From a virus: 20,377 nucleotides of DNA. This document shows, one piece after another, positions 1,921-20,377 of this stretch. Position 1 is the stretch's first letter; each line of letters opens with the position of its first letter. The DNA is taken from positions 1 through 20,377 of the IMG/VR virus record IMGVR_UViG_3300017760_000146. One strand, given 5' to 3'. The notes under the pieces are model-generated. The model did no database searches, was not told the DNA's origin, and saw only the letters and a program-made list of their open reading frames with translations. A program made the translations under genes and the position numbers.

Positions 1921-2691
1921 ATGGCAACTACTTATTTACAATTAACGAATGAGTTATTAAGAGAATCAAACGAAGTTGTTTTAACTTCAAGTACTTTTAG
2001 TGGAGCAGTAGGAATACAAGCGCATGTCAAAGACTGTGTTAATCGTTCTTATAACGATATAGTTATGGCTGAACCTCGTTGGTCTTTTCTTGCTACAGGA
2101 GAAAGCGGAACTACAGATCCTTTTTATGGTAATGTTAATGTAGAAACCGTAGCAGGAACAAGATGGTATGAATTAAAAGCTTCATCAAGTTCAGTTGCAA
2201 ATGATTATGGTGCAATAAATTGGGATGATTTTTATCTTACAACTATAGGTGTAAGCGGAGAATCAGCACCTTATACAAGTAAAAATTTAAGATTTGCTAC
2301 TCTTGAAGATTGGAAAGATTTTAGAAGAGAATCTGAAAATGTAGATGATGCAGATACACAAACATACGGAACACCTAATGTGGTTTTTAGAAGCACAGAT
2401 GGCCGTAAGTTTGGAGTAAGTCCTATACCAGATAAAGTTTATAAAGTTTGGTTTTTTGCATATGATTTACCGACAGCGTTAAGCGCACACGGAGATACTA
2501 TTGTATTTCCTGATATGTATAGCACTGTATTATTAGCAAGAGCTAGATACTATATGCATCAATTTAAAGATGATTCTCAAGTTGCTGCTTTTGCTTTAGA
2601 TGATTATAAAAGAGGTTTAAGAAGAATGAGATCAAATCTTCTTAATCCTGCACCAAAATATATAACAGACGATAGAGTAAAAGTAATATGA
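1921..2691 (+). CDS. Head-to-tail adaptor protein (T7 gp11 / P22 gp4-like, tentative)
   Basis: A 256-residue protein with the layout of podovirus adaptors: an N-terminal helix (residues 3-16, 'TTYLQLTNELLRES'), a helix 'VKDCVNRSYNDIVM' (36-49) followed by 'EPRWSFL', a central beta-rich part with many aromatic residues, and C-terminal helices ('YSTVLLARARYYMHQF' near 200-215). Such proteins form the ring under the portal (T7 gp11, P22 gp4) that closes the head and carries the tail hub. The next gene looks like the hub, and the two overlap by the ATGA quartet at 2688-2691, so they are probably translationally coupled. Similarity to T7 gp11 is in architecture, not in clear sequence identity. It could be another head-completion protein. 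Confidence 0.68.
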   Translation: MATTYLQLTNELLRESNEVVLTSSTFSGAVGIQAHVKDCVNRSYNDIVMAEPRWSFLATGESGTTDPFYGNVNVETVAGTRWYELKASSSSVANDYGAINWDDFYLTTIGVSGESAPYTSKNLRFATLEDWKDFRRESENVDDADTQTYGTPNVVFRSTDGRKFGVSPIPDKVYKVWFFAYDLPTALSAHGDTIVFPDMYSTVLLARARYYMHQFKDDSQVAAFALDDYKRGLRRMRSNLLNPAPKYITDDRVKVI

Positions 2692-4316
2692 GTTCACAGC
2701 CTTTTGCATTGGCTTGTCAAGGTGGCTTAAATAAAGTATCAAGTCAGTTTGAACTGTTAAGATCTCCTGGAGAAGCTACAAAATTAACAAATTTTGAAGT
2801 TTCTACAAACGGTGGATATCGAAGAATAAATGGATACACACAGTTTGGAGATGGCACAAGACCAAATAGCTCAAACGCTATTAAAGGCTTACAAGTATAT
2901 GCAGATGGTTTAATTGCTGCTTCAGGAACAAATATATATTTTAGTCAAGACGGAGACAGTTGGTTACAGATAAATAAAGATAGCGTTGCAGGTGGAGGAG
3001 ACAACTACAGTACGTTTACAGGTAGAAGCACATTAGCTAGAACTTCACAGGACCAAGCATCTTTTGCAATATATGAAGGCGATACTGATTATGGAGAACT
3101 TATAATAACTGATAGAAGTTCTGCAACTAAACCTTTATATTTTAAAATGACAGGAACAGGCTCGGCATTGAGTAGTCGAACTTATTTTACTAAAGAAATT
3201 ACAGTTAGTGGAAGTGTCTATCCTAAATATTGTGTAATTCATGATAGGCATTTAGTAGTAGGAGGAGCAGCAACAGCACCAAATACTATATATTATAGCG
3301 GAACTGATGACATAGATGACTTTTCATCTACAGGTTCTGGAAGTATAAAGTTAGATGATCAAGTAGTAGGTTTAAAATCTTTTCGTGATGATTTAATTAT
3401 ATTTTGTAAAAACAGTATTTATAAATTAGTAAATATAAACAACTCATCTACTATTGCAGTACAACCAATAACACAGAACATAGGTTGTTTAGATGGTGAT
3501 AGCATTCAAGAAATAGGTGGTCAATTGTTGTTTTTAGCACCTGATGGAATAAGAACAGTTGCAGGTACAGCAAGAATTGGTGACGTTGAACTTGGATCTT
3601 TAAGTAGAAAAATACAACCTATTGTAGGAGATATTGCAGATAATATTTCTAGTTATAATATAAGTAGTGCTGTAATAAGAAGTAAATCTCAGTATCGTTT
3701 ATTTTATGGAAGTTCTGGTATAACTACTGCTGTTTCAGAAGGAATTATAGGAACACTTAGAATTACACCAGAAGGCGGTGCAAGATTTGAATGGTCTGAA
3801 ACAAAAGGAATACAAGGAAGTGGAGGCTTTACTTCTGGTTTTGATTCAACAGGAACAGAAAAGCTTTATCATGGAGATTATGCAGGTTATATTTATAATC
3901 ATGATACAGGAGATAAGTTTAATCCAGCAGGAACAGCAACAAACATCGATGCTGAATACGAAACACCAAGTTTAGATTTTGGAGATTTAGGAGTATTAAA
4001 AACTTTAAAGTATGTTAAGTTATCAGTTAAACCAGAAGGATCAGTACAGCCTTCTTTAAAAGTTGTTTATGATTATGATGATTCAACTATACCACAGCCT
4101 GCTGCTTATACTTTAAGTAGCATACCTACACCTGCAATTTTTGGAACAGGAGCATTTAATGCAGTTACATTTGGAGCAGCGCCTAATCCAATGACTAGGC
4201 AAACAGTAGAAGGAAGTGGAAACACTGCTTTTTTAAGATTATTTAGTGATGATCAAAACGGACCATACACAGTAAATGGAATTTATATAGATTACGTACC
4301 TTCAGGGAGAAATTAA
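2688..4316 (+). CDS. Tail hub / DNA-stabilising structural protein (T7 gp12 / P22 gp10-like, tentative)
   Basis: A 542-residue, beta-rich protein. Its N-terminus, 'QGGLNKVSSQFELLRSPGEA' followed by 'LTNFEVSTNGGYRRINGY' (about residues 11-50), matches the opening shared by many phage tail-tube hub proteins: a GGLN motif, a PGEA turn, then a strand with GGYRRI.GY. The rest alternates short strands and Gly/Asp turns ('GLQVYADGLIAASGTNIYFS', 'FRDDLIIFCKNSIYKL'), as in a beta-propeller. The start overlaps the adaptor stop by four bases. Order and size fit P22 gp10 or T7 gp12, the part that plugs the DNA channel and attaches fibres. The fibre gene follows three bases after its stop. The exact family is not proven by the sequence alone. 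Confidence 0.7.
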   Translation: MSSQPFALACQGGLNKVSSQFELLRSPGEATKLTNFEVSTNGGYRRINGYTQFGDGTRPNSSNAIKGLQVYADGLIAASGTNIYFSQDGDSWLQINKDSVAGGGDNYSTFTGRSTLARTSQDQASFAIYEGDTDYGELIITDRSSATKPLYFKMTGTGSALSSRTYFTKEITVSGSVYPKYCVIHDRHLVVGGAATAPNTIYYSGTDDIDDFSSTGSGSIKLDDQVVGLKSFRDDLIIFCKNSIYKLVNINNSSTIAVQPITQNIGCLDGDSIQEIGGQLLFLAPDGIRTVAGTARIGDVELGSLSRKIQPIVGDIADNISSYNISSAVIRSKSQYRLFYGSSGITTAVSEGIIGTLRITPEGGARFEWSETKGIQGSGGFTSGFDSTGTEKLYHGDYAGYIYNHDTGDKFNPAGTATNIDAEYETPSLDFGDLGVLKTLKYVKLSVKPEGSVQPSLKVVYDYDDSTIPQPAAYTLSSIPTPAIFGTGAFNAVTFGAAPNPMTRQTVEGSGNTAFLRLFSDDQNGPYTVNGIYIDYVPSGRN

Positions 4317-7300: not shown

Positions 7301-8744
7301 TGACAGATACTATTCTGGCGGTTGGCATAATAATATGACCTTTGATAGAAGCTCTGGAAACGTAGGAATCGGCACCGCAAGTCCAGAAGAACCACTACAT
7401 ATTAGTGAAGGAGATTCAGGTGTTACTCCAAAAGCAGGAACGCTTCTTTTTGTTGAAAACGATGGAGCTGCCAAAATAAGTCTTGGCTCTGCAAATGATA
7501 ATGATGGTCAAATACTTTTTGGAGATGATGGTGATAACGATATTGGAGCAATAACTTATTCTCATGGTGGCAATAGAATGGAGTTCAAAGTCAATGCTTC
7601 TGAAAGAATGAGAATAGATTCATCAGGAAACGTTGGGATTGGTACTACTACTGTAAACGGAAGACTTCATAGTGAAGACTCAACCGCAGGAAACTGGGTA
7701 GGTTATTTTAATAATACAGGTACTGGTGGTGCAGGTGTATTAATCAAGAGTGCAGGCGCAACAGGAAGTGAAAACTTATTAGATGTTAGAAACGGTAGTA
7801 ATACTTTATTTAAAGTTGAGCAAAATGGAGATGCTGTTAGGATTCCAACAGATGATATATGGTTTACTTTAGGCGCTAGTAATGATCTAGGACTAATCCA
7901 TGATGGTTCTAATTCTTATATGTCCAATTACTATGGTGCTATGTATTTTGATCAACATGTCAACGATGGAAACATGGTTTTTAGATCAGACGATGGTAGT
8001 GGTGGTGTAGCAGAATATTTAGCTCTTGACGGTGGTTCTGAAAAAGTAAAAGTAGCAAAACATCTTCAAGGAGCTACAAATATATCATCTTACAACGGTG
8101 CAAATGAGTGGGTAACAATAAGAGGATTAAGTGGAGGTCAGTATATTCAATATGGATCAGGTGATGGCTTATCTTTTGTAGCGGTTGATACTTTTCCTAA
8201 TTCGGGTGCATCAACAAAGATGTATTTGAATGCTGGTGGTAGGTTATTAGTAGGTTCAACTTCTGAATTATCACCAACCTCAAGAGTATTTATTAATGCA
8301 AACTCAAACAGCACCAATCCAGCTCTTAATCTTAAAGCCGCAACGACAACTTCATCGGGTTCCGTAGTAATATTTTTTGCAGGAGATGGAGATGAAGTAG
8401 GCTCTGTTGGTATGTCTAACTTAGAACAAGGAACAGGTGTTTCATATAACACAGGTTCAGATGCTAGATGGAAAGATGTCACAGGCGAAGCCAAAGGGCT
8501 TGAAGTAATAACTAAATTAAATCCAGTTGCATTTAATTGGAAAAAGTCAGGACTAGCCGATGAAGGATTAATAGCACAAGAGGTTCAAGAACATGTACCA
8601 AACATCGTCCAAGAAGGCAGTAATGGTTATTTGCAAATGGACTACGGAAAACTTGTCACACCACTTATCAAAGCGGTTCAAGAACAGCAAGAACAGATCG
8701 AAGAACTTAAACAACAAATAAATAAACTAAAAGAGGAAAAATAA
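4320..8744 (+). CDS. Tail fibre with repeat shaft and C-terminal S74 self-cleaving chaperone
   Basis: A 1474-residue receptor-binding fibre. Residues 1-60 are the probable attachment end ('SYTRQSSFSDGDTITAALFN'), with a GHRHDG motif at 44-49. Residues 100-145 carry the 'DLGTSSVEFKDAYFDGTV' type segment seen in many cyanophage fibres. Residues 213-362 are four tandem Asp/Val-rich repeats, and an 82-residue block (363-444) recurs at 561-642. Residues about 940-1320 hold knob-like modules opening with VGIG (944, 1015, 1105). The last 95 residues are an intramolecular chaperone of peptidase family S74: SDARWK at 1380-1385 has Ser and Lys five apart, as in the endosialidase Ser/Lys dyad, and a coiled coil ends the protein ('QEQQEQIEELKQQINKL'). 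Cleavage before Ser1380 would release the chaperone after trimer folding. The ribosome site AGGGAGA lies inside the end of the preceding gene. Confidence 0.93.
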   Translation: MAQSYTRQSSFSDGDTITAALFNNEYNQLVNAFTYSSSSASSTGHRHDGTAGHGGNIHTIGDLDFLNKIVADSTNNRWGIFVQVSSSAVEQIRIQDGAIVPVTDNDIDLGTSSVEFKDAYFDGTVTTDALVADTADINGGTVDGAIIGGSSAAAITGTAITGTSFVIGSADISEAELETIDGVTAGTVAASKAVVVDSNKDIASFRNITLTGELDAATLDISGDADIDGTTNLDVVDIDGAVDMATTLTVAGNVDFNGDLDVDGTTNLDVVDIDGAVDMATTLAVAGNVDFNGDLDVDGTTNLDVVDIDGAVDMASTLAVAGVLTGASLDISGDIDIDGTSNLDIVDIDGAVDMATTLTVGGEITAASLDISGNVDIDGTLETDALTIDGTTLAETISDTVGAMVGSNTETNITVTYEDSDNTLDFVIGTLNQDTTGTADNITVSANNSADETVYPVFVDGATGSQGAESDTGLNYNPSTGMLTTTGVTATFTGNITGNVTGNTSGTAATVTGAAQSNITSLGTLTTLTVDNVIVNGTTIGHTSDTDLITLADGNVTIAGELDLTTLDVSGDADIDGTLEADAITVGGTTLAEFISDTAGAMFSSNTETGITATYQDADNTIDLVVGTLNQDTTGTASKVTVSDSTANTNFPVVFHDESNALLDDTGALRYNPSTGELLVPKLTVAGTTTTADTVTMEASNAIIFEGATADSNETTLSIVDPTSDHTQYLINQGGYIPVLAAATTTAITATPAELNLLDTAAANSVVNSKAVIYGSSGELAGTLSTAAQTNITSVGTLSSLAVGAITSTAASTITTADNLAQLTLVSTDTDSSIGPVLDLKRNPNEAGADSDFLGQVHFTGHNDAGTPEDIVYSKLTSQIVDASDGTEDANMVAYVMKGGSRADMFRLGPTEAVFNESSNDIDFRVESNGNANMLFVDGGNDTVGIGAVSSAAPFQVSASPSDTVGTVGISLKDADNAIEFGLRLDATSKDLHIDRYYSGGWHNNMTFDRSSGNVGIGTASPEEPLHISEGDSGVTPKAGTLLFVENDGAAKISLGSANDNDGQILFGDDGDNDIGAITYSHGGNRMEFKVNASERMRIDSSGNVGIGTTTVNGRLHSEDSTAGNWVGYFNNTGTGGAGVLIKSAGATGSENLLDVRNGSNTLFKVEQNGDAVRIPTDDIWFTLGASNDLGLIHDGSNSYMSNYYGAMYFDQHVNDGNMVFRSDDGSGGVAEYLALDGGSEKVKVAKHLQGATNISSYNGANEWVTIRGLSGGQYIQYGSGDGLSFVAVDTFPNSGASTKMYLNAGGRLLVGSTSELSPTSRVFINANSNSTNPALNLKAATTTSSGSVVIFFAGDGDEVGSVGMSNLEQGTGVSYNTGSDARWKDVTGEAKGLEVITKLNPVAFNWKKSGLADEGLIAQEVQEHVPNIVQEGSNGYLQMDYGKLVTPLIKAVQEQQEQIEELKQQINKLKEEK
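4779..4808 (+). repeat. Perfect 15-bp tandem duplication in the fibre gene
   Basis: GCCATTACAGGTACA occurs twice back to back (4779-4793 and 4794-4808) and encodes Ala-Ile-Thr-Gly-Thr twice. The copies are identical at DNA level, which suggests a recent slippage event, unlike the older, codon-diverged repeats further along the gene. Confidence 0.9.
4956..5405 (+). repeat. Four tandem fibre-shaft repeats (40, 35, 35, 40 residues)
   Basis: Fibre residues 213-252, 253-287, 288-322 and 323-362 each contain the core DGT(T/S)NLD(V/I)VDIDGAVDMA followed by TL and V-(A/G)-G. Copies 2 and 3 differ by one residue (Thr to Ser) in 35. The other two carry a five-residue longer lead with 'LDISGD'. Regular Asp-x-Asp and Val/Leu alternation suggests a stacked beta structure (helix or prism) along the trimer shaft. 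The DNA copies are clearly diverged from each other. Confidence 0.9.
5406..5651 (+). repeat. Long fibre duplication, copy A (82 residues)
   Basis: Encodes fibre residues 363-444, beginning with 'LDISGNVDIDGTLE' shortly after the start and ending in 'LNQDTTGTADNITV'. It aligns without any gap to residues 561-642, with 56 of 82 residues identical. The block includes an 'ISDTVGAM.GSNTET.I' segment that resembles parts of cyanophage fibres. Confidence 0.88.
5796..5831 (+). repeat. Three 12-bp tandem units in the fibre gene
   Basis: ACAGGTAATATA, ACAGGTAATGTA and ACAGGTAATACA follow one another and encode Thr-Gly-Asn-x three times. The units share their first nine bases. The length is a multiple of three, so slippage here would change fibre length without breaking the frame. 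Confidence 0.88.
6000..6245 (+). repeat. Long fibre duplication, copy B (82 residues)
   Basis: Encodes fibre residues 561-642, starting 594 bases downstream of the start of copy A. It has the same length as copy A and no gaps. Differences are mostly conservative (Ile/Val/Leu, Ser/Ala, Glu/Gln), so both copies probably have the same fold. Confidence 0.88.
8457..8744 (+). other. S74 intramolecular chaperone domain of the fibre
   Basis: Encodes residues 1380-1474. SDARWK supplies the Ser/Lys pair; 'VITKLNPVAFNWKKSG' and 'GLIAQEVQEHVPNIV' are the conserved core of the family, followed by 'MDYGKLVTPLIKAVQEQQEQ' and a terminal coiled coil. In known members the chain is cut just before the Ser, after the trimer has formed. 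Confidence 0.93.
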
Positions 8745-9344: not shown

Positions 9345-12300
9345 ATGGCAAGAAAAAGATATAATAAAGGTAATAGACTTGATATGAGACAAGGCGGTAG
9401 AGTTGCTTTGGCTAGAGGTCGTAGTCCTAATAGAGAAGAAAACGGAACAGGCCGTAAAGATCCTAGAAATCCTAGACCTGATCCTAGACCTGATCCTAGA
9501 CCTGATCCTAGACCTGATCCTACATCTAGACCTGAACCTAGACCTCGTAAACCTACACCTGATCCTAAACCTATACCTGGACCTAGATATACTCCTACAA
9601 CACCAACAGGACCAGATCCAAGAGATCCTATAGATATTCCAGAAAGCGAAGGAGATAACACTCCACAATATACAGATCGTACAGACAATCAAGCACGAGC
9701 AACCAGAGAGTTTGTACAACAAGCAGCAGAAGGTAAACTTCCTGCGGATGCTATTATGTCTGAAACAGCAGTTACAGATCCTAATATAAAGTTTGTTGAA
9801 GACACTATTCCTCAAATGACAGAGACAGCTCTTCAAAAGGCCCAAGCATCTACTGCAAAAATGTTACCTAAAGGTTTTAGTTTTACTCCTCCTGAAGGAT
9901 TAAATATAGATGCTACAAGAAGACCTCCAGCAGGAAAAAGATATATTTATGGTCCTGATGGTCAAACTCAACTAGTCGATGAAGATGCAACTTTTGTAGA
10001 AGGAGAAGCAGTTGCAACAGGTGATTCCTCTACTGTTGATTTTTCTAGTTATAGAACAGATTCAGAAGGAAACCCAATTTTAGATGCAGATGGAAAACCA
10101 ATACCAACACTAGAATCATCAGGATATACAGCAGATCAAATAAGCAAAGAGTCTGCTCCAACAGTTACAGTAGCATCTATTAGTGGTCTTTCAGCAGGCG
10201 CAACAGCGAATTTAGAAGCAATAACACGGAGAGATCCTGCAACAGCCGCCAGCATTACTGATTCTATTATGAATGCAGCAAAAGCTAAAAATGCAGATGC
10301 TGTTATTAGTGCAGGCGCTTTTGCTCCTGAAGTTACAGGTATAGGTGGAAATGTATCTGAAACACCTGATGCAGAAGTAAAAACTAGAGAAGCTATTACA
10401 GGAACTAAAGCCACAAGTACAGAAGCACAGATCGTAGGTACAGTCGGTTATGAAGCTGCTCAACAAAGAGCAGTAACAGGTGAGGCAGCCAAAGGTGCTG
10501 CAGCCGATATGCTTGCAGAAACAGCAAACTTACCTCCAGAGATAAGTGCATCAATTGTAGAAGATCCTGCAACTGTTGAAGCACAGATAGATACTCAACC
10601 TGTAGAAGTTCAAGCTGCAGTCGCTGCATTACCTACAGAAGCTTTGGTTTCTTCACAAATGGAAAACCTTTTAGGAGGCATGGAAAATGGTGAAACTCCT
10701 TTATGGGCTAAACCTGCGGTAGACGCAGTTAATCAAATGATGGTTCAAAGAGGTTTAAATGTTTCAAGTGTTGGAAGAGATGCATTGTTTAATGCAATTA
10801 TAACACAAGCAATGCCTATGGCTCAAAGCAATGCACAGGCTTTACAGGCTAGAGCAGCTCAGAATTTATCAAATGAACAACAAGCTAATTTAGAACAGTC
10901 TCGTCAAGATATGCAAAGACGTATGGCTAATCTTTCTAATCGTCAAACGTCTGCTAGTCAAACTGCACAGATGGCTCAACAGATGGCCACAATGCAAAGT
11001 CAATTTAGACAAGATGCTACAATGACTACTGCACAACAGCAACAACAAACAAGAATGCAAAACTTGCAGAATGAACAACAAGCTGCTGTATTACGTTCTC
11101 AGAATCAACAAGCCATTGCCGCACAAGAATTAGGAAACGAGCAACAAATAAATCTAACAGAATTACAGATTGATGCTGCTAGAGCAGGTGCTGATCAGTC
11201 TGCAGAAAATCAAAAACGTATGTTAGAAATGCAAACTGCAGCAGATTTCTTATCTAAGAACGCTGGGTTTAAACAACAAATGCAAATTGCAAATTTGTCA
11301 AATGATCAACAAATGAGATTGGCAAATCTTTCTGCTCTTAATCAAGCATCATCTGAAAACTTAAGTGTAGAACAACAGACAGAACTTGCAAATCTTAATA
11401 AGACAATGCAAATGAATATTAAGAATGGTGAGTTAGCAAATGCAATGGGTGTTGCTCAATTAAATGTTGATCAACAAAGAGCCATGCAAAATGCTAACAT
11501 GGTTGCTAACATGGACATGACTAAGTTTACTGCAGAACAACAAGTAGAATTAGCTAACAGTAAATTTATGCAGACCGTATCTATTCAAAATATGAATGCA
11601 GAACAGCAATCTATTATGCAAAACGCAACAGCTATGGCAAGCCTAGACTTAGCAGAACTCGATTCAAATACTAAACTTGCTGCTCAAAATGCACAGGCTT
11701 TTCTTAGTATGGATATGGCAAACTTGTCAAACGAGCAACAAGCCAACATGCTTAGAGCGCAACAAGATCAACAAAGATTGTTAAGTAATCAAGCTGCTCA
11801 GAATGCATCTTTACAGTTTAACGCTGCTAACGAGCAACAAGCTAATATGTTTATGGAAAACCTAGCTGTTCAAGTTGATTTAAATAATGCTTCAAGAAAC
11901 GATGCAATGTCACAGTTTAATGCAACACAGTCTAATCAAGCAGAAGCAAGACGAATGGCAACAGAAGCTGATCTTTCTAAATTAAATGCTCAGTTAGAAA
12001 CACAAGTTTCACAGTTTAACGATCAACAAGATTTTCAAAGAGATCAGTGGAATAAAGCAAATGAAACTGCAATTATGCAATCCAATGTAGAATGGAGAAG
12101 AAAATCAAACACAATAAATACTGCAGCTCAAAATGAAACCAATAGGTTTAATGCTGCAAATGCTTTTAATATGAGTACACAAGGCATGACATTTATGTGG
12201 CAAGAAATGAGAGATCAAGCTAATTATCTTTTTCAAGCAGAACAAAATGAGGCTCAAAGACAGGCTGGATTGTTTAATACTATATTAGGACAAGAAGCAT

Positions 12301-12377
12301 TGATTACTGAAAACAGTGGCTTACAAAACTCATATAAAGATTTAATGGCAACCGTTACTGGTTGGTTCGGTACATAA
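9345..12377 (+). CDS. Large Gln-rich helical virion protein with hendecad repeats
   Basis: A 1010-residue protein with a strong ribosome site (AGGAAGGAAAG). Regions: a basic N-terminus (1-30, 'MARKRYNKGNRLDMRQGGRV'); a Pro-rich linker with four Arg-Pro-Asp-Pro-type units (about 40-97); a mixed domain (about 115-260); an Ala/Thr-rich helical domain (265-440); a conserved-looking cap ('PLWAKPAVDAVNQMMVQRG', 452-470); then a very long Gln/Asn/Ala-rich helix region (500-945) and a short C-terminal part. The Gln-rich region repeats NLSNEQQANL-like motifs in exact 11-residue register. Proteins of this look occur in virion gene clusters of marine phages. No enzyme motif is visible. It lies between the fibre cluster and other probable internal virion genes, so a structural or DNA-ejection role is the best guess. 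Confidence 0.82.
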   Translation: MARKRYNKGNRLDMRQGGRVALARGRSPNREENGTGRKDPRNPRPDPRPDPRPDPRPDPTSRPEPRPRKPTPDPKPIPGPRYTPTTPTGPDPRDPIDIPESEGDNTPQYTDRTDNQARATREFVQQAAEGKLPADAIMSETAVTDPNIKFVEDTIPQMTETALQKAQASTAKMLPKGFSFTPPEGLNIDATRRPPAGKRYIYGPDGQTQLVDEDATFVEGEAVATGDSSTVDFSSYRTDSEGNPILDADGKPIPTLESSGYTADQISKESAPTVTVASISGLSAGATANLEAITRRDPATAASITDSIMNAAKAKNADAVISAGAFAPEVTGIGGNVSETPDAEVKTREAITGTKATSTEAQIVGTVGYEAAQQRAVTGEAAKGAAADMLAETANLPPEISASIVEDPATVEAQIDTQPVEVQAAVAALPTEALVSSQMENLLGGMENGETPLWAKPAVDAVNQMMVQRGLNVSSVGRDALFNAIITQAMPMAQSNAQALQARAAQNLSNEQQANLEQSRQDMQRRMANLSNRQTSASQTAQMAQQMATMQSQFRQDATMTTAQQQQQTRMQNLQNEQQAAVLRSQNQQAIAAQELGNEQQINLTELQIDAARAGADQSAENQKRMLEMQTAADFLSKNAGFKQQMQIANLSNDQQMRLANLSALNQASSENLSVEQQTELANLNKTMQMNIKNGELANAMGVAQLNVDQQRAMQNANMVANMDMTKFTAEQQVELANSKFMQTVSIQNMNAEQQSIMQNATAMASLDLAELDSNTKLAAQNAQAFLSMDMANLSNEQQANMLRAQQDQQRLLSNQAAQNASLQFNAANEQQANMFMENLAVQVDLNNASRNDAMSQFNATQSNQAEARRMATEADLSKLNAQLETQVSQFNDQQDFQRDQWNKANETAIMQSNVEWRRKSNTINTAAQNETNRFNAANAFNMSTQGMTFMWQEMRDQANYLFQAEQNEAQRQAGLFNTILGQEALITENSGLQNSYKDLMATVTGWFGT
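9471..9518 (+). repeat. Four perfect 12-bp tandem repeats (Pro-rich linker)
   Basis: CCTAGACCTGAT is repeated four times without change (9471-9518) and encodes Pro-Arg-Pro-Asp units. Degenerate copies continue to about 9600 (CCTACATCTAGA, CCTGAACCTAGA and others). It makes a stiff, extended, charged linker at residues 43-58 of the Gln-rich protein. Perfect DNA identity indicates recent expansion. Confidence 0.93.
10875..12164 (+). repeat. Hendecad (11-residue, 33-base) repeat region
   Basis: Covers residues 511-940 of the Gln-rich protein. The acidic residue of the x-L-S-x-(E/D)-Q-Q motif is at 511, 577, 599, 654, 676, 709, 731, 753, 797 and 830. All gaps (66, 22, 55, 22, 33, 22, 22, 44, 33) are multiples of 11. 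The Phe of the (Q/R)FN motifs at 825, 858, 891 and 935 is also spaced by 33, 33 and 44. Hydrophobic residues tend to fall three before and five after the acidic residue. Confidence 0.88.
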
Positions 12378-12398: not shown

Positions 12399-13967
12399 AT
12401 GAAAAGATTATTTAAGAAAATTTTAAAACCTATTAAAAATGTTGTCAAGAAAGTTGGTGGTTTTTTTGGTAGAGTAATGAATAAATTAGGTCCTTTAGGT
12501 ATGTTTGCAATGATGATTGCTATGCCTACTTTATCTAACTTTTGGTCCTCGATGGGTAATGCTATAGGAGGTACTGCAACAGGTGGTCAAGTAGCAGCAA
12601 CTGCCGCAGCAGAAGCATCGGCAACTGCATCAGCTACAGGAGCAACCGCTTCTCAAGCTGCCAATTTAGGAGCAGAAGCAGGAAGACAGGCCGCAAAAGA
12701 AGCAGCTAAGAAAGCAGGAGAAGGTGTATTAAAAGCTTCTGTAAAAAGTGCTTATGCTTCTGGAACAGGACAAGCTACAGGTTTGTTTGCAGGTGGCACA
12801 GCTAGTCAGGCTTTAGGATATACTTTAAAAACTTTACACAATACTGCATCTTTAGGAATGAATGTATTTAGTACTTTAACTGGAGCAGTCAGTGGCGCTC
12901 TTGATCTTGTTAGTGGTGGAAGCCTTACAAAACTCGGTAACTTTTTCGGAGATCGTTTTGGAGATTTTCAAACTAGAATGGGAATGGCTACTAGTGAAGG
13001 ATATAAAACTAGATTAGGAGATCGTTTAAAACAAGGTCAATTAAGTGATGGTTTTTTAGAAGTTGTTCAAAAAAGAAATCCTAAGTTGTTTTCAGAGTAT
13101 AAAAATTTCTATACTCCTGAAGGAGAATATATTAGTGCTAGAGATAGTATAAGATCTTCTCAAGATACTGATGCACTACTTAAACAAGATGTTGAGTCTA
13201 TTCTTGCAGGCTCAAACAAAAATAGAAATTATTTAGTCGATGCTGATCCAGATGCTTCTAAACGTATGTACTCTAGTGTTTCTGAAGAAGTGCCTGCTGA
13301 TTTAGGAACATATAATGTTACAGGAAATCGTGAAGAACTTTTAGGAGATATAACTATTGGAGGAAAAGGTGATTTTGTTAATATGGATGCTTTAAATAAA
13401 AATACTTTTAGTGATAGTTCGGCTTTTTCAACATTACCGCCTGTTGAAGGAGAGTTAAGTTTATTAGGAAAGACAAGAGAAGTAGCTTCTGATTTTTATG
13501 CAGATATAAAACAAGGAATAATGGGAGGAGAAAGAACTACAATGGTAGATGAATATGCTGTTGATTCAGCAGGTGTATCTTTTCCAACAGGAAAACAAAT
13601 AGAACAAACAGTTATAGATCCAAACATTATTCAAAGAGCTTCGTCTGCTGCAGGAGATTCAATTTCTAATTTTCCTAAGAAAACAATTGATGAATACCAA
13701 CAGTCTTGGATAGATAGAAAACTTGGAAATGTTCCTCAAGTTGTAAATAATTATACTGCGAGATCAGAAATTCCAGGAATAAATTACGATCAAAGAAATG
13801 ATTTTGTAGTTGAATTACCTAGAGACTTAAATGATCCTGACCTTATTAATGTTAATAATTATAATAATAATAATAACGGTATTTTTTCAGCCAATCCTTA
13901 CATTACTGTTGATCAAAGAGGCGATAGAACAAATATTGATTATGGTACAGGAGGTATGTATGGATAA
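12399..13967 (+). CDS. Virion-type protein with cationic amphipathic N-terminus (522 aa)
   Basis: A 522-residue protein of unknown family. Residues 1-30 ('MKRLFKKILKPIKNVVKKVG' and onward) form a cationic amphipathic helix, followed by a hydrophobic stretch (33-49, 'LGMFAMMIAMPTLSNFW') and an Ala/Gly/Thr-rich, low-complexity helical region (60-115). Residues 120-200 are Gly/Ser/Ala-rich with further hydrophobic patches. The rest is mixed and polar, with an Asn-rich run (484-493) close to the C-terminus. Similar basic-then-hydrophobic N-termini occur in structural proteins of marine phages. The membrane-active look fits a protein that enters or crosses the host envelope during DNA ejection, but this is inference. 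The gene ends with an eight-base overlap with the next gene. Confidence 0.78.
   Translation: MKRLFKKILKPIKNVVKKVGGFFGRVMNKLGPLGMFAMMIAMPTLSNFWSSMGNAIGGTATGGQVAATAAAEASATASATGATASQAANLGAEAGRQAAKEAAKKAGEGVLKASVKSAYASGTGQATGLFAGGTASQALGYTLKTLHNTASLGMNVFSTLTGAVSGALDLVSGGSLTKLGNFFGDRFGDFQTRMGMATSEGYKTRLGDRLKQGQLSDGFLEVVQKRNPKLFSEYKNFYTPEGEYISARDSIRSSQDTDALLKQDVESILAGSNKNRNYLVDADPDASKRMYSSVSEEVPADLGTYNVTGNREELLGDITIGGKGDFVNMDALNKNTFSDSSAFSTLPPVEGELSLLGKTREVASDFYADIKQGIMGGERTTMVDEYAVDSAGVSFPTGKQIEQTVIDPNIIQRASSAAGDSISNFPKKTIDEYQQSWIDRKLGNVPQVVNNYTARSEIPGINYDQRNDFVVELPRDLNDPDLINVNNYNNNNNGIFSANPYITVDQRGDRTNIDYGTGGMYG
13854..13877 (+). repeat. AAT trinucleotide run (poly-Asn)
   Basis: AATAATTAT followed by AAT four times and AAC encodes Asn-Asn-Tyr then five Asn, near the C-terminus of the 522-residue protein. 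It is a short microsatellite that could change length in frame. In another frame it produces a spurious poly-Ile stretch. Confidence 0.85.
13949..13955 (+). promoter_or_regulatory. Near-perfect ribosome binding site deciding the start at 13960
   Basis: AGGAGGT, the strongest Shine-Dalgarno match noticed in the window, sits four bases before ATG 13960 and inside the end of the preceding gene. It fixes the start of the 196-residue protein and argues against the upstream ATG at 13831 in the same frame, which would encode a poly-Ile artefact of the AAT run. Confidence 0.85.
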
Positions 13968-14550
13968 TAATATGGAAGGACAAATCGCTATGCCTCAGTT
14001 TGAAAAACCTATTCCAGGTTCTTCTTTGACAAGCAGTGTTGATAATCCAAAACCTTTTGAGAAAGCACCTGAAATTACAAAACAAGCAGACGGAATTAAT
14101 TATTTGTTTTTAAAATTAACAGACGAAGAACAGTATCCAAAAGTAATGTCTTCAATAAGAGAAGGAGTTCCATTAAGCGAACTAGCTCAACTTGTTTTAT
14201 TTGAAGGTTTTTCTCAAGGCAAATGGAATCCAGATATGGTTTTGCTTTTGTTTGAACCTTTAATATATATGCTTATGGCCTTGTCTGAAAAAGTACAGAT
14301 TGAATATGTATTGTATCCTAATGAAGAAAAAGACGATGAGGTATTAGACATAGAACAAGAAGTAGAAATTTTAAGAAAGATTGCTGATATTGCTGCAAAA
14401 GAAGTTGGTACTGGAAGCAAAGTAACTTCTCTTCCTTCTGAAATACAAGAAAGATTAGAAGAGTTTAAACCTTCTGGTGATACTTTAAGTCTTATGGAAA
14501 AAGAAGAAAAACCAATAACTGATATAAGTTTAATGGAAAAACAATCATAG
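13960..14550 (+). CDS. Conserved acidic phage structural protein (196 aa)
   Basis: Starting at ATG 13960 (overlapping the previous gene by eight bases), the product is 196 residues. A short linker, 'MPQFEKPIPGSSLTSSVDNP', leads to a helical core 'LTDEEQYPKVMSSIREGVPL' (about 53-72), 'ELAQLVLFEGFSQGKWNPDM' (74-93) and a hydrophobic helix 'VLLLFEPLIYMLMALSEKV' (94-112), then an acidic tail. The pattern P-G-x-S-L-T...DNP...PE and 'VPLSELA...GF..GKWNPD...LL.EP' looks like a family seen in cyanophages and other marine phages beside large virion genes; I recall no function. The hydrophobic helix could be a membrane segment or a helix packing against partners. It is probably a minor virion or chaperone-like component coupled to the flanking genes. 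Confidence 0.82.
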   Translation: MDNNMEGQIAMPQFEKPIPGSSLTSSVDNPKPFEKAPEITKQADGINYLFLKLTDEEQYPKVMSSIREGVPLSELAQLVLFEGFSQGKWNPDMVLLLFEPLIYMLMALSEKVQIEYVLYPNEEKDDEVLDIEQEVEILRKIADIAAKEVGTGSKVTSLPSEIQERLEEFKPSGDTLSLMEKEEKPITDISLMEKQS

Positions 14551-14569: not shown

Positions 14570-17023
14570 ATGGTTGATAGATGGCAAGGAAAAGGAACTG
14601 AAGAAGCAAAAGGCTATGCAGAAAAAATAGATACTGCATGGGATGACATTTATATGGGAAATAAAAGTAGTTCAAGTAGTCGTAAAGACCTTAGAAAACT
14701 TTTAAAAATAGGAGCAGGCTTGGGTATAGCAAAACTATACGGAGACAAGCAAGTTGAAAAATACGGTAACGATGCTTTATCAAGAGCAAATGATGTTAGT
14801 TTAGAGCTTCAACAACAAAAACAACTATTACTAAACGATATAGAACAGGCATCGGCTATTGGAGTAAGAGAAAAAAGAATGCGAGAAAAAGGCATTTTTG
14901 ATGTTCAAGATCCAAGACAAATAATGGAAGACATAGTTAATGATCCTGCTACAGGTTTAAATGCAGAAGGAGTTGCAAGATGGAACACTCAATACGGTTC
15001 TGGAAAAGCCTTAGAAGGAGGAGCAACTCAATATAATTTTGAAGATATATCTACATTAAGAAATATATTTAATAGTGAACAAATAGAAAGAGCTTCAAAT
15101 TTACTAGGACAACATTTAAAAGGATCGGCTGCTTTTAAAGGTTTAAGAGGACCTGGTGGCATAATGCCGTCTATAACAACGACCAAAGAAGGTCAAAAAA
15201 TTATTGATGATCAAGGCTATTTAAACAATGTTCAAACTGCTCTTGATAATATATCTGTAATAACACAGAATATTAAAACAGACGTAGATGGAATGAAATG
15301 GACAGACGGTATTTTATTGCGTATGGGAATTAAAAAGTTAGATAGAGAGTTTATTATTAAAGAAGAAATTTCAAAAGAAATAAATAGAAAATCTCAATCA
15401 GAAATAAGAAAAAATTTAAACTTTAATCTTAAACAAACTACTGCAGATGAAAATTTAGCGAAGCAATTAGAACTAAGAATACAGCAAGGTATAACTCAAG
15501 ATATACAGAATATGGATATTGATGAGGCTCTTAAAATTTTAAATATTGTTACTCCTAAAGTAGGAACACTAATAAAAACAACAACAAGTCAAGGTAGTTT
15601 TGATGGTACAACAGTATCAAAAACAACTGAAGATGTTTACATGAAATCTGAAAACTTTATAAGTTCGTTAGCTGAGACAGCAGTAACAAATACTATAAAT
15701 AACACGGATGGATCAATTAAGACAGGAATGAGTGATATTGTAGAAAGAGCTGAAAGTGATGAAATTCTCATGGCAAGATATACAGGCATGATTGGAGAAA
15801 GATCAGGTGCTGTGGATATGATAAAACAAACTATAGCAGACTTAAGGTTGCCGATTATAGAAGACGATCCTTTAACACCTAAGATAGATGAATCTTTTAT
15901 ACCTTCTGAAAATTTTGATCAAGCCTTTAACCAATATTGGCAAATTATAGATTCACAAGGTAAAAAATGGAATGAAGGTGAGTTCAATAGAATTAAAGGT
16001 AAATTAGGTTATGATGCAAAAACACAACTTGAGGAGTTAGAGTATGATCTTATTAATACTGGATTGCAATTAATACCTTATAGTAGTGAATCTCGACAAA
16101 CTGAAATCAAAAATCAACTTCGTCAATTGACTGGTAGAAGAGATAGTTTAATGGATATGTTAAATGAAACAGAACAAAACAAAACTAATTTTGATGTTTT
16201 TTCAGAAGATAAAAGACAAATTAGTTGGAATGCTTTGATGAATACATTAGGAGAATTAAAATCAGTACGTGATTTAGATGATTTATTAAACATAGGTCAT
16301 AGTACCGATGTTGCGACTGCTTTACTACAAGAAGCAAAAGGAGCAAATTATGAAAAGATGTATAATGTATTGAACAGAGAAGGAGAATTTACTGGATCAG
16401 ACTTGCAAACTCGTTATGGTGTAATGGTAGGATTTTTAACACAAGCTTATATGAGAACTGGTAAAGATGAAGATGTTGCACAGCGTTTAGCTTCTATAGA
16501 TGTAATTTCAGAATTGACTTATCAAGATAAATCAGGCAATAATCCACAAAGAGTAAGTATCAGTAGTTTATTTGCTAATAAAATATTTGGTCAAGGAAAT
16601 AAAAAAGACCCACAAACAAGTATAATTCCACTAGCAAATAGAATATTTAAAGCTGAAGAACAATATCAAAATGCAGATATTGAAAGTGCTTTGTCAATGA
16701 TGAAAGAATCTTTAGATACTGAAGAAGTAGCAGAAATTCTTGCTATAAAAGATGATTATATTAAAGTATATCAAGGCAAAGATCTTCCTCCTGATACTCC
16801 TTCTTTTGATGATTTAAACAATAGAGAACAATTACGTTTCTTATTACGACTTTCTGGTCAACTAATGTCAGTAGATCCATCATTAAAGATGAGACTAGAG
16901 CCTGATGTTATTAGATTATTAGATACTGCTACAAACATAGGAAGTAGTCAAGATAGAGAAACTGCCGTTACTATATTAAATAATATGATTACACAAGAAT
17001 TTAATTTGGCAGAACTTCTTTAG
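14570..17023 (+). CDS. Large helical virion-type protein (817 aa), probable internal protein
   Basis: An 817-residue protein with ribosome site AGAGGA before ATG 14570. It is hydrophilic and mostly helical, with no signal peptide or clear membrane segment. A weakly hydrophobic patch (45-56, 'LKIGAGLGIAKL') follows a Ser run and a basic stretch (32-46), then comes a coiled-coil-like segment (70-94, 'LELQQQKQLLLNDIEQA'). Later parts are rich in Asp/Glu/Lys and Ile, without recognised catalytic motifs. It follows a small acidic virion-type protein and precedes a giant protein, much as T7 genes 14-16 and P22 genes 7, 20 and 16 encode sets of ejected proteins. The grouping is inferred; the family is not recognised. 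Confidence 0.8.
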   Translation: MVDRWQGKGTEEAKGYAEKIDTAWDDIYMGNKSSSSSRKDLRKLLKIGAGLGIAKLYGDKQVEKYGNDALSRANDVSLELQQQKQLLLNDIEQASAIGVREKRMREKGIFDVQDPRQIMEDIVNDPATGLNAEGVARWNTQYGSGKALEGGATQYNFEDISTLRNIFNSEQIERASNLLGQHLKGSAAFKGLRGPGGIMPSITTTKEGQKIIDDQGYLNNVQTALDNISVITQNIKTDVDGMKWTDGILLRMGIKKLDREFIIKEEISKEINRKSQSEIRKNLNFNLKQTTADENLAKQLELRIQQGITQDIQNMDIDEALKILNIVTPKVGTLIKTTTSQGSFDGTTVSKTTEDVYMKSENFISSLAETAVTNTINNTDGSIKTGMSDIVERAESDEILMARYTGMIGERSGAVDMIKQTIADLRLPIIEDDPLTPKIDESFIPSENFDQAFNQYWQIIDSQGKKWNEGEFNRIKGKLGYDAKTQLEELEYDLINTGLQLIPYSSESRQTEIKNQLRQLTGRRDSLMDMLNETEQNKTNFDVFSEDKRQISWNALMNTLGELKSVRDLDDLLNIGHSTDVATALLQEAKGANYEKMYNVLNREGEFTGSDLQTRYGVMVGFLTQAYMRTGKDEDVAQRLASIDVISELTYQDKSGNNPQRVSISSLFANKIFGQGNKKDPQTSIIPLANRIFKAEEQYQNADIESALSMMKESLDTEEVAEILAIKDDYIKVYQGKDLPPDTPSFDDLNNREQLRFLLRLSGQLMSVDPSLKMRLEPDVIRLLDTATNIGSSQDRETAVTILNNMITQEFNLAELL

Positions 17024-17032
17024 GATAATTAA

Positions 17033-20000
17033 ATGTTGACTGAACTTCAAAGACAAGCTTTAAACAGTTTTATGTTTAGAGATAGATCTCAGGATGAAGA
17101 ATATCTTGAAGATGAAGATATGATTGTTGATTTTACTGATCAACTTGAAGAAGATACTCTTAATGTAGATATTGATCAACCAAGCATAGAAGAACAAGAA
17201 CAAAAACAAGAAATAATTGTTCCTGATCAAGATGGTCCAACTATTCCTTTTCCTAAAGAAGCTACTGCTGAAGAAGAACAAGAACAAAAAGAAGAAGAAG
17301 AAGTTCCTTCTATAGTAAACGATGTAGCACCTCCAACAAGAAACAAAGCGTATATTGAAATAGCAAATCAAGCTATTTTAAGACCTATGGATATTCAAAT
17401 TGCTAGATTAGAAAATAATTTAGATAGTAAATATGCAACTGATGACTCTAAAAAAGAAATACAGACAGAATTAGATGTTCTTAAAAGAGAACGAGATGAA
17501 ATACAAAAACAAATTACTGCAGATAATTATTCTTTAATTACTGATTTTTCAAAAGATATATCTAGCTATACTAAATTAGACGGTACAGACGATGCAATAA
17601 AAGCAGAAGAATTTTTAAAGGCTGATACTGCACAAATAAAAACTATTGATGCTTATGTAAACAACCCATTAATAAATAAAGTAGCTATGGATTTCTTTAA
17701 TGAATTAGGAGAAAAAGCTTGGAAGAATGCTTCAGCCGATGAAATGATGTATTATTTTAGAAAGGAAGTTTCTCTTGATGATATGATTAGAAGGGCCACA
17801 CAAGTAGGAGACTGGTCAGATGAACAAAAACAAAGGTATCTTTGGTTAAGAGAAACATTTGATAATACTAGTTGGACAGAATCAAGATTAAGTAGAAAAC
17901 TAGAAGCAGTCGGTGAATATACATGGCAAGTAATTTGGGATCCAGCTACGACAGTTACTCTCTTAACTGCTCCTTTTACAGGAGGCGGTTCTGTTGCAGC
18001 AAGAGCAAGCGCTCAAGCAGCTTCTAAAGTTGCCTTTAGACATATGTTATTAAATGGACTTAAAAATAATTTAAGCGCTAATTCAATTAAACAAGTAGCA
18101 AGTCGTATTGTATCTAAAGAAAGTTATAGTGCAAGAGCTTTAAAAAATACTTTGTTTGGTACTCCTGCTAGAACAAACATGACATACGGATTTACATATG
18201 GATCTATTGCAGATAATCTAATTCAAGAAAAAGCAATAGGTTTAAATCAACAAGACGAAAAAGATTATTATCGAATAATAAAAAACGGTGGTTTGTTTGC
18301 TTTAGCTGGAGGAACATTAGGTAAAGTAATAGACTCAACACCTGGAGCAGCTAAATATCTTGCAACTTCTGAAGCCAATCCTTTGTTTTTTCAAACAATC
18401 ATAGGAAATCCTAGTAAAAAAGTTATGTATGCTTTAAGACAAGCAGCTACAGCTATTGATACAACTTCTGGAAGAAGACTATCTACTGGTTTATCTTATA
18501 TGAGAGATGGTATTGATATTACTGCTGGTCTTACTTTTGGAAAAGCGACTTCAGTTTTTAAACGTGTTGTTGATATAACTCCAGGTTTAAGACCTTTTGC
18601 AAATGCTATGAATGCACAATGGGATCGTAGATTAATAGGTACTTCTCCAAGTAAAACAGATACACCAGAACAACTGTCTATGATACAAGAATATGGAAGC
18701 TTGGCTGGAGATTTTGGAACTCGTTTAAAATTAATACTTACTGACAACAAACTAAGAAAAGGAATATTTGGACAACTTAAAGGTAGAACACCAAGAGAGA
18801 AAAAATATGGTCCAAGCGGTGAAAAACTTTCTACAGGTTCTAATTTAGGTATGTATAAATTAGACGATGTAACTAATAATTTATTATCTACAACAGTAAG
18901 ATCAATGACATCTAGAGGACCAAGAAAAAATACTACACCTTTTACAGCAACAGGAAGACTTAGATTAGATTTTAAAAGACAAATTGAAGAAGCAGGACAA
19001 GGATACTACACAGTAGATAATTTTTTAAACGCAGCAAAAGAGATTAGAAAACTCGATGATGAAATTTTAAAAATAGCTAAAAATACTGGTTTAATAGATA
19101 AAAGTGTAAGAGTTGTAGGACATATGCCTCGTATGTGGTCTGAAAAGATTTTAGATCCTGCTAATAAAACAAAGATGATAGATCATTTTGTAAAAACAGG
19201 ACAAGCAAAAAATAAAGAAATTGCTACTGATATATATAATGAAATGATTGACAAGTCTTTAATGGCTCAACGATACGGTGCTTCTGCTCCTTATAGTGGA
19301 GTGGCTGGAAGAAAGCTAACAAAAATAAAAGATGATGAGCTAGCAGATCTTTTAGATAATGATGTAGAGTCTGTTTTTTCTAGTTACTTTGATGGGTTTA
19401 GTAAATTAATTGCTGAAAACAATTCTTTTGGATTACCTACACAGGCAAGATTATTAGTTGATCCTAAAAATGGTAAGTTTGTTCCTTTAAAAGGAAGCGA
19501 AGTTGGTAGTAAACTAGCTCCTGTGCTTAAACAAGCAATTAAAGACATAGATGCTTTAGATGTTTCAGTTGCTAGAAAAAAACTTTTAAGATTTCAATTA
19601 AAAAGACTAGAAAAAACTTATCAGTATACAGTAGGAAACGTACCTAGAATAGAAAACAAGGCTTTACGTTTTGCATCTGAAGCTGCTCAAGTAGGTGTGC
19701 AATTAGGTTTTCTACCTCTTGCAACAGTTACAAGTATATCAGAAGCTTTTATTCCTTTGGCTCATGTTAATGCTCCTACATACGCAAAAAATATGATGAG
19801 TGTTATAGGACTACAAGGTAAAAAAACAGTTAGAAATATATACAATGCTTTTGATTTAAACCAAACAAACTTGGCAAAATTAAATGTTGGTTATGAATTT
19901 AAAAAAGGATCTATCATACCTAAAAAAACAGAAGGTAAAAAACTTGGTGAATGGTTAAATAAAACAGAGGCTTTTGAAGAAGCAAATAAAGTTATGTTGT

Positions 20001-20377
20001 TCATGGATCAAGCAGCAATGCAAAGAGTTGAAACTTTATATTCTGCAGATATACAAAACAAAGGATTAAAAGCTGTACAACGGCTTTTCTTTAGAGCTAA
20101 CCTTCTTGCTGAGTGGACAAAAACTGTAGAGTTGGCTAGTTTTATGATGGGCAAAGATATGATTAGAACAAATCTTTCTAAAATTAATAAAGGCGGTTAT
20201 ACAAAGTTATCTTTAAATAGATATAGAGATGAACTTGAAACATTAGGAATTAATGTAGACGAAGGATTAAAGTTTATTCGTGGTGATATGAAAGCCAAAG
20301 AGATGTTAGATTTTGAAAAGAAGATTATGTTAGGCGGTCAACGATTTGCAAGACAAATTATTCTAAATCCTAAAGTA
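17033..20377 (+). CDS. Giant virion protein, N-terminal 1115 residues (partial, runs off the window)
   Basis: ATG 17033 (ribosome site TTAGGATAA) opens a frame with no stop to base 20377, so at least 1115 residues. Residues about 21-98 are strongly acidic (runs of Glu with Gln, Lys and Pro). A charged helical part follows, then a Gly/Ala-rich hydrophobic region after 'WDPATT' ('TVTLLTAPFTGGGSVAARAS', 307-326), and long mixed helical stretches. At 697-702 is HMPRMW, and near 1020-1044 'FFRANLLAEWTKTVELASFM'. A 'DP..LL..' hydrophobic segment, a '.PR.W' motif and a '.N....W' helix recur in very large phage proteins carried in the virion and delivered with DNA (T7 gp16-type and 'large polyvalent' proteins). 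No peptidoglycan-cutting domain is visible; one could lie downstream. The ejection role is an inference. Confidence 0.88.
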   Translation, partial: MLTELQRQALNSFMFRDRSQDEEYLEDEDMIVDFTDQLEEDTLNVDIDQPSIEEQEQKQEIIVPDQDGPTIPFPKEATAEEEQEQKEEEEVPSIVNDVAPPTRNKAYIEIANQAILRPMDIQIARLENNLDSKYATDDSKKEIQTELDVLKRERDEIQKQITADNYSLITDFSKDISSYTKLDGTDDAIKAEEFLKADTAQIKTIDAYVNNPLINKVAMDFFNELGEKAWKNASADEMMYYFRKEVSLDDMIRRATQVGDWSDEQKQRYLWLRETFDNTSWTESRLSRKLEAVGEYTWQVIWDPATTVTLLTAPFTGGGSVAARASAQAASKVAFRHMLLNGLKNNLSANSIKQVASRIVSKESYSARALKNTLFGTPARTNMTYGFTYGSIADNLIQEKAIGLNQQDEKDYYRIIKNGGLFALAGGTLGKVIDSTPGAAKYLATSEANPLFFQTIIGNPSKKVMYALRQAATAIDTTSGRRLSTGLSYMRDGIDITAGLTFGKATSVFKRVVDITPGLRPFANAMNAQWDRRLIGTSPSKTDTPEQLSMIQEYGSLAGDFGTRLKLILTDNKLRKGIFGQLKGRTPREKKYGPSGEKLSTGSNLGMYKLDDVTNNLLSTTVRSMTSRGPRKNTTPFTATGRLRLDFKRQIEEAGQGYYTVDNFLNAAKEIRKLDDEILKIAKNTGLIDKSVRVVGHMPRMWSEKILDPANKTKMIDHFVKTGQAKNKEIATDIYNEMIDKSLMAQRYGASAPYSGVAGRKLTKIKDDELADLLDNDVESVFSSYFDGFSKLIAENNSFGLPTQARLLVDPKNGKFVPLKGSEVGSKLAPVLKQAIKDIDALDVSVARKKLLRFQLKRLEKTYQYTVGNVPRIENKALRFASEAAQVGVQLGFLPLATVTSISEAFIPLAHVNAPTYAKNMMSVIGLQGKKTVRNIYNAFDLNQTNLAKLNVGYEFKKGSIIPKKTEGKKLGEWLNKTEAFEEANKVMLFMDQAAMQRVETLYSADIQNKGLKAVQRLFFRANLLAEWTKTVELASFMMGKDMIRTNLSKINKGGYTKLSLNRYRDELETLGINVDEGLKFIRGDMKAKEMLDFEKKIMLGGQRFARQIILNPKV

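Follow-up and report, generated by a model that had tools for sequence, protein, structure and literature searches.

A hendecad rod of quantised length in a glutamine-rich protein of HMO-2011-type podoviruses, a candidate ejection protein and possible DNA conduit

A glutamine-rich protein of a short-tailed marine phage, encoded in a record of an uncultivated virus (20,377 bases, analysed over its whole length and referred to here as the window), contains a continuous array of eleven-residue units, and in related phage proteins the length of this array differs by whole units. The quantised length of the rod between two conserved anchors is the strongest evidence that we report. From it, and from the setting of the gene and the arrangement of residues around the predicted helix, we tentatively propose that the array is the hendecad rod of an ejection protein and acts as a DNA conduit comparable to the H tube of phiX174, a reading in which our confidence stops a little short of even.

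The register is evident from the window protein by itself. Over residues 511-945, self-identity at lags of 11, 22, 33, 44 and 55 residues was 72, 89, 92, 79 and 72, compared with 38-42 in shuffled sequences (z = 5.0, 7.9, 8.8, 7.1 and 6.0), and every other lag below 60 had z of 1.2 or less. A first-pass annotation of the same DNA had claimed an eleven-residue register at 10875-12164 (residues 511-940) and had suggested autocorrelation as a check; with peaks at these five lags only, the claim was borne out more strongly than it had been made. That annotation counted ten (E/D)QQ motifs in one phase. The single phase holds, but there are eleven such motifs (residues 511, 577, 599, 654, 676, 709, 731, 753, 797, 808, and 830, of which 808 had been missed), and a twelfth motif of this type, DQQ at 893, is out of phase. 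The register was also correctly said to run on into a zone of FN motifs, those at 825, 858, 891, and 935 being in phase and those at 482, 941, and 977 out of phase. Among the intervening motifs that had been listed, ENQ 621, KQQ 643, LNQ 665, and R533Q are in register, but the NQQ placed at 588 is really at 587, one residue off. The in-register array covers approximately residues 507-946, and a phase model that penalises slips returned one block, 492-946, without a slip. Proline is absent from the rod after P491, and seven glycines lie between residues 470 and 702. Nothing comparable at lag 11 was found in the neighbouring proteins of the window.

At the DNA level the array is visible solely through its coding, and its units are recognisable only as protein. 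Within the rod, Tandem Repeats Finder picked up just two brief matches (two to three copies each) and no array, and third codon positions showed no excess of agreement at lag 33 (0.333 vs. 0.31-0.33, with lags 30 and 36 agreeing as often). Because the rod's DNA has no tandem-repeat structure, the array is old; a recent minisatellite expansion is ruled out by the lack of a tandem DNA array together with the lack of a third-position excess at lag 33. Within the same gene, the N-terminal region does carry a PDPR-type tandem repeat, at 9469-9585, with units of 12/18 bases.

Table 1. Features of the rod gene and its surroundings (positions are those of the window; residue numbers are those of the rod protein).
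Feature	Position	Strand	Remarks
Tail genes upstream of rod gene	1921..4316	+	Adaptor (SU10 adaptor-like) and nozzle-like protein
Gln-rich rod-protein ORF, 1010 aa	9345..12377	+	HMO-2011 gp25 / CHOED_013 family; homologues found
N-terminal region, residues 1-449	9345..10691	+	Begins Pro/Arg-rich with PDPR repeats; variable linker follows
Helical anchor domain, conserved, residues 450-506	10692..10862	+	TPLWA..AV..RGL..SS.G..A...AI...MPMAQ; from alignments
Invariant P491, N anchor	10815-10817	+	Pro of PIAQ-like (PxAQ) motif
Hendecad rod, residues 507-946	10863..12182	+	40 units of 11, single unbroken phase; register kept in relatives
C-terminal part of rod (FN zone), residues 815-946	11787..12182	+	Phase unchanged; Phe at column 11 replaces Leu at column 10
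W917, C anchor	12093-12095	+	Trp of SNxxWR; inside FN zone
Post-rod C-terminal domain, residues 947-1010	12183..12374	+	Helical; AlphaFold confidence moderate
522-aa gene, next after rod gene	12399..13967	+	Basic amphipathic N terminus
Syntenic partner gene, conserved	13960..14550	+	~196 aa if start is the in-frame ATG at 13960
817-aa ORF, presumed ejection module	14570..17023	+	From position only
Large ORF, at least 1115 aa, runs off window	17033..20377	+	Position of T7 gp16-type proteins

The rod gene is placed after adaptor and nozzle genes and before large ORFs of virion type or resembling internal proteins. Since this neighbourhood has the arrangement of an ejection module, we read the rod protein as an ejection protein; the ejection-module position is well supported, and the ejected-protein setting that the first-pass annotation had assumed is plausible on these grounds. 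Pfam and PHROG gave no family match for the 1010-aa ORF, and virion proteomics for any member of the rod family was not found in the literature searched. Also upstream, the window encodes a major head protein, a long S74-domain fibre, and small genes. In the fibre ORF (4320-8744) there are internal repeats of 35 and 40 residues and a match resembling bactofilin, the S74 domain being at the C terminus, and its DNA holds tandem 105/120-base arrays at 5001-5459. Downstream, the slot of the 522-aa gene is kept in relatives, but a match of its sequence to their genes was not found. In eight of the ten reference phages checked, the rod gene is closely followed by a relative of the partner gene. As listed (13831-14550), the partner ORF begins with a spurious hydrophobic N terminus, MILTLLMLIIIIII, an out-of-frame reading of AAT-rich sequence that belongs to the upstream gene, and its start is likely the ATG at 13960. 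The large ORF at the end of the window had weak matches to one PHROG annotated as endolysin and one annotated as virion structural protein; an internal virion protein D (IVP-D) is annotated in HMO-2011-type phages (PMC6918029).

Relatives of the rod protein were found in 27 phage records (each <60% identity), which include phages of Pelagibacter, Roseobacter, Puniceispirillum (HMO-2011), Vibrio, Aeromonas, Pseudoalteromonas, and rhizobia. A single-sequence search recovered 33 viral contigs with relatives, an alignment search found relatives in at least 527 of 600 candidate stretches, and 13 contigs of bacterial assemblies also carried them. The family belongs to HMO-2011-type podoviruses and their allies. 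Within the bacterial assemblies, the contigs L128-L131 showed identical lengths, ranges, and match statistics (and, for one pair, the same contig name) in two MAGs, one of Flavobacteriales and one of Neomarinimicrobiota; these duplicates suggest that viral contigs were wrongly binned with bacteria. In BFVD, four matches had E values of 0.001 or lower (28-48% identity), and these look like relatives judging from identity and length, W8FPS3 having the same length as CHOED_013; the remaining BFVD matches were tape measure-like long helices with insignificant E values. PHROG and Pfam matches among the relatives were mainly to the C-terminal S74 domain of one protein, together with a weak DUF5411. 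The protein with that domain is the rod homologue of Roseobacter phage CRP-738 (L042:4597-7011), which ends in a Peptidase_S74 chaperone domain in a region that also matches PHROG 4287, "DNA ejection protein." The homologue in HMO-2011, gp25 (L035:8960-11080), has an extra C-terminal module with a CWVAREVYG motif, unlike the S74 of CRP-738. Another homologue, in Podoviridae sp. ctYwJ313 (L041:5008-7599), is annotated as "huntingtin," probably a spurious label caused by its high Gln content.

Conservation of the register in homologues had been named as a further check, and there the outcome was clear: in practically every relative, lag 11 or 22 ranked first or close to first. Moreover, the distance between the anchors corresponding to P491 and W917 was 8 mod 11 in 95 of the 95 proteins that have both. 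It took 13 values (151, 162, 173, 184, 228, 239, 305, 316, 360, 426, 536, 646, and 866 residues), and a looser definition of the anchor gave 8 mod 11 in 101/101 and added the lengths 338 and 437. The same proteins supply the controls, in that distances from the start to P491 and from W917 to the end cover all residues mod 11; the length of the N-terminal region is thus independent of the register. Alignment gaps tell a similar story. Among gaps of eight residues or longer, multiples of 11 made up 377 of 790 in the rod (48%), compared with 108 of 1149 in the N-terminal region (9%, the chance level), these counts being drawn from sequence pairs that are not independent. A tree built from the flanking domains (78 sequences) requires the length class to have changed 22 times or more, always by a multiple of 11; the flanking sequence took in the rod's final portion, and exchange of entire rods by recombination between phages could inflate the number of changes. 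Column-specific residues and phase persist in proteins down to approximately 24-25% identity. Some of the lengths form a ladder with steps based on 110 residues (316, 426, 536, 646, and 866, in the rods L096, L097, L106, L110, and L018), and in the longest rods lags 110 and 55 dominate, which suggests duplication of blocks of ten hendecads. Rod length showed no positive relation with genome size when ten reference phages were compared by eye.

That the rod is helical we regard as near certain. An AlphaFold2 monomer model of residues 400-1010 (20 sequences) contained helix and loop only, with a mean pLDDT of 55. The pLDDT reached 75-85 in the most confident stretch of the C-terminal third, the helix was interrupted in several places in the middle, and the first half of the rod had low confidence. 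A relative with a short rod (L134, 27 sequences) was modelled as one unbroken helix of 158 residues (180-337), with blocks mostly at 71-88. Helix was therefore the only secondary structure given by AlphaFold for the window rod and the short-rod relative, and together with the continuous period of 11 residues it makes the units hendecads; as a rod structure helix is well supported. The monomer prediction asked for by the first-pass annotation was informative in part: it suggested no globular or beta fold, so that the fold on which the hendecad claim was to have fallen did not appear, but it was of low confidence in the rod's first half. A Foldseek search of PDB found no relative, and neither single-sequence nor profile searches of PDB sequences gave anything significant.

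The faces of the helix were analysed in 44 non-redundant rods (1438 units), with columns placed at 98.2 degrees per residue, and the resulting pattern is likewise well supported. Charged residues concentrate at columns 5 and 9 (33 and 65 degrees), where they account for 45% and 42%, and make up at most 17% of any other column. Columns 3 and 7 (196 and 229 degrees) hold Gln, Asn, Ser, or Thr in about two thirds of units (65-68%), and the Gln-lined side suggested earlier is supported. Two hydrophobic seams lie between these faces, one formed by columns 2 and 10 (98 and 164 degrees) with the Gln/Asn column 6 between them, the other by columns 11, 4, and 8 (262-327 degrees), which is nearly without acidic residues. 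In aligned rods of equal length, conservation was highest at column 6 (0.80) and near its lowest at the charged columns 5 and 9 (0.44-0.56). Two seams approximately 164 degrees apart would suit helices packed in a wide barrel or a sheet. A simple amphipathic 11/3 helix of the synuclein or apolipoprotein kind, which had also been put forward, did not survive the analysis, there being no single hydrophobic stripe: the single-stripe moment was 0.18 at 98 degrees vs. 0.31 for the mean of the shuffle maxima, and the k=3 power of mean column hydropathy was near zero.

Under the conduit reading, the rod protein would be packaged in the head of an HMO-2011-type podovirus and would leave it as extended helices. 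Each copy would form an alpha-helix of 11 residues per three turns with four lengthwise faces, the charged one made by columns 5 and 9, to which Asn 1 is adjacent, and the opposite, Gln/Ser/Asn face by columns 3 and 7. On ejection, several copies might pack side by side via both seams, with the Gln face inward and the charged face outward, giving a Gln-lined DNA conduit that would prolong the short tail in the manner of the decameric phiX174 H tube. As each unit would add one identical rise, rod length would evolve only in whole units. Rods of 151-184 residues (23-28 nm) would directly fit an envelope-spanning tube, and long rods would have to be folded back, coiled, or deployed only in part. 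As a straight helix, 426 residues measure 64 nm and 866 residues 130 nm, vs. 17 nm for the H tube. The Gram-negative envelope is usually thinner than rods of 64-130 nm. Heads of HMO-2011-type isolates are approximately 70 nm (PMC8528129). Since rods of this size outsize the envelope and the longest exceed the head, a plain straight tube across the envelope cannot be what every phage makes. The earlier idea of a conduit is strengthened, unexpectedly, by the fit of the rod pattern to the hendecads of phiX174 H, and the ejection-module setting is plausible. The single uninterrupted helix of 65 nm that went with it is not supported, given the breaks and the uncertain first half of the AlphaFold model and relatives whose rods, at up to 866 residues (~130 nm), compare with heads of ~70 nm; storage as one straight helix of 65 nm is unlikely.

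A further finding speaks against the conduit, namely that the most conserved column, 6, lies in a hydrophobic seam, outside columns 3 and 7 of the proposed lumen. The same finding suits a hendecad coiled coil of low order (dimer to tetramer), which would serve as a rigid structural or spacer rod in the virion or tail, with a core of columns 2, 6, and 10, which share one face, and Gln6 as a buried polar layer. Peptidase_S74 domains are known from trimeric fibres, and the CRP-738 relative that ends in one could be taken the same way, but by motif S74 occurs in just 1 of 106 relatives. A simple bundle would also have no need of the second hydrophobic seam (columns 4, 8, and 11) with its near lack of acidic residues, and we consider a coiled-coil rod unlikely. 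We think it somewhat more unlikely that the protein is an assembly ruler or scaffold, in which the number of units would set the length of an internal or tail-associated structure. Such a role would account for variation by whole units and by 110-residue blocks, and siphophage tape measures varying by whole 11-residue units are known (PMC3271669), as is the shortening of tails by unit deletions (PMC5099701). The isolates, however, are short-tailed and therefore have no long tail to measure, regular Trp/Phe markers are missing from most of the rod, and there is no membrane-type segment (the best 19-residue mean hydropathy is 1.05).

Few helix breakers and low tertiary confidence are what would be expected of a long helix devoid of tertiary structure, threaded through portal and tail and then binding a membrane surface, DNA, or peptidoglycan by an 11/3 face, much as synuclein and apolipoproteins do. 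Partial unfolding on ejection has been proposed for crAss cargo proteins (PMC10172136). Against this, hydrophobicity has power near zero at the 3/11 frequency, there are two stripes rather than a single amphipathic face, and the proposed membrane face bears conserved Gln/Asn; this reading we judge improbable. The register could, finally, be passive, a by-product of unequal recombination of 33-base units that adds or removes whole units with no bearing on structure. Gain and loss of units must begin by recombination, and duplications of 110-residue blocks are visible in long rods. However, the DNA units have diverged beyond detection while columns and phase persist at the low identities given above, and indels in the N-terminal region follow no multiple-of-11 rule, leaving a passive origin very improbable.

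Whole-hendecad change over a 6-fold range of lengths, in at least 22 steps, amounts to a natural experiment on rod length, in which phages with about 14, 22, 39, 49, or 79 units are directly comparable. A large family that is now labelled "hypothetical," with one member mislabelled as huntingtin, gains a usable annotation. If the tube is real, Gln-lined hendecad helices for DNA transport would have arisen convergently in ssDNA and dsDNA phages.

The closest known proteins are gp25 of HMO-2011 (phage1322_25) and CHOED_013, true homologues that share the anchors (PxAQ and SNxxWR), the 11-residue register between them, and the gene order with the window protein. Their rods are shorter, with 228 and 173 residues between anchors vs. 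426 in the window, and both carry only a "hypothetical" annotation. Outside the family, the nearest precedent for unit-wise change of length is given by the 11-residue tape measure proteins of siphophages (e.g., TP901-1), which likewise have helical units in variable number and change length by whole units (PMC3271669; PMC5099701). They differ from the rod in having Trp/Phe markers and mixed 11/18 periods, whereas the rod has a pure period of 11, is based on Gln/Asn, and has Phe as its only aromatic marker, confined to its end. They also have membrane segments and belong to long tails, in contrast to the rod protein, which has no membrane segment and comes from a short-tailed phage, as indicated by the short-tailed isolates that hold its closest known relatives and by the adaptor and nozzle genes in the window. 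Ejection proteins of podoviruses (T7 gp14-gp16, P22 gp7/gp20/gp16, and DEV gp71-gp73) share with it the position of the gene, helical structure, and presumed ejection, but T7 gp13-gp16 and the P22 proteins lack a lag-11 signal. Profile matches to T7 gp14-gp16 were marginal and composition-biased, and none was convincing.

The crAss cargo protein C1 (phiCrAss001 gp45), which is present in virions (PMC10172136), resembles the rod protein in its setting, its gene following directly on the muzzle/nozzle gene. Toward its C terminus (L139:43901-44512, residues ~639-842) there are [YF]N motifs spaced 11, 7, and 11, and the spacings of 11 then 7 recur in Steigviridae relatives. Unlike the rod, gp45 has few units only, mixed with a heptad. 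Homology by hhalign profile-profile comparison was insignificant (E 0.039, probability 1.3%), and gp45 is possibly a distant relative of the rod or a case of convergence.

A solved parallel for the conduit reading is phiX174 pilot protein H, a decameric helical tube of 170 Å built of three hendecads followed by heptads, in which 18 of 23 inward residues are Asn, Gln, or Arg (PMC7354561); the PDB entry 4jpn of the H-tube (4JPN/4JPP) contains 10 chains. A positional matrix of the rod, scored against the rod's own composition, gave 13.8 bits in a single phase for H residues 151-183 (33 residues), compared with a shuffle mean of -9.3 and 0/5000 shuffles as high; with the columns of H permuted, p was 0.017. 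The best segment in a scan of full H scored 23.6 bits. Among ~5,480 33-mers of other phage proteins, one reached 13.8 bits, crAss001 gp45 at 18.5 (the control scan listed nine matches, eight of which came from the CRP-738 rod protein slipping past the filter), and the maxima were 8.3 bits for T7 gp13-gp16 and 12.6 bits for the P22 ejection proteins. In the matched phase, positions 1 and 8 of H align with rod columns 7 and 3. These positions presumably face inward, because most inward residues of H are amide or Arg (PMC7354561). Some of this signal reflects symmetry of the pattern, as reversed H also reached 8.7 bits. PDB searches by single sequence or profile found no homology between rod and H, and their likeness is one of pattern, non-homologous and resting on three hendecads: a hendecad helix with Gln at matching relative positions and amide residues opposite a charged face. 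H combines three hendecads with 11 heptads in 17 nm, vs. the 14-79 pure hendecads of the rods, and it is a solved tube, whereas the rod belongs to dsDNA tailed phages and is without a solved structure. H is the ejected DNA conduit of a tail-less phage (PMC7354561). Its counterpart, if the conduit role suggested for the rod is correct, might be a DNA conduit assembled from alpha-helical modules in tailed dsDNA phages, convergent with the H tube, Gln-lined, made of pure hendecads up to 79 units, and extended in quanta of 11 residues (16.5 Å) and blocks of 110, a generalisation that we consider possible but rather doubtful.
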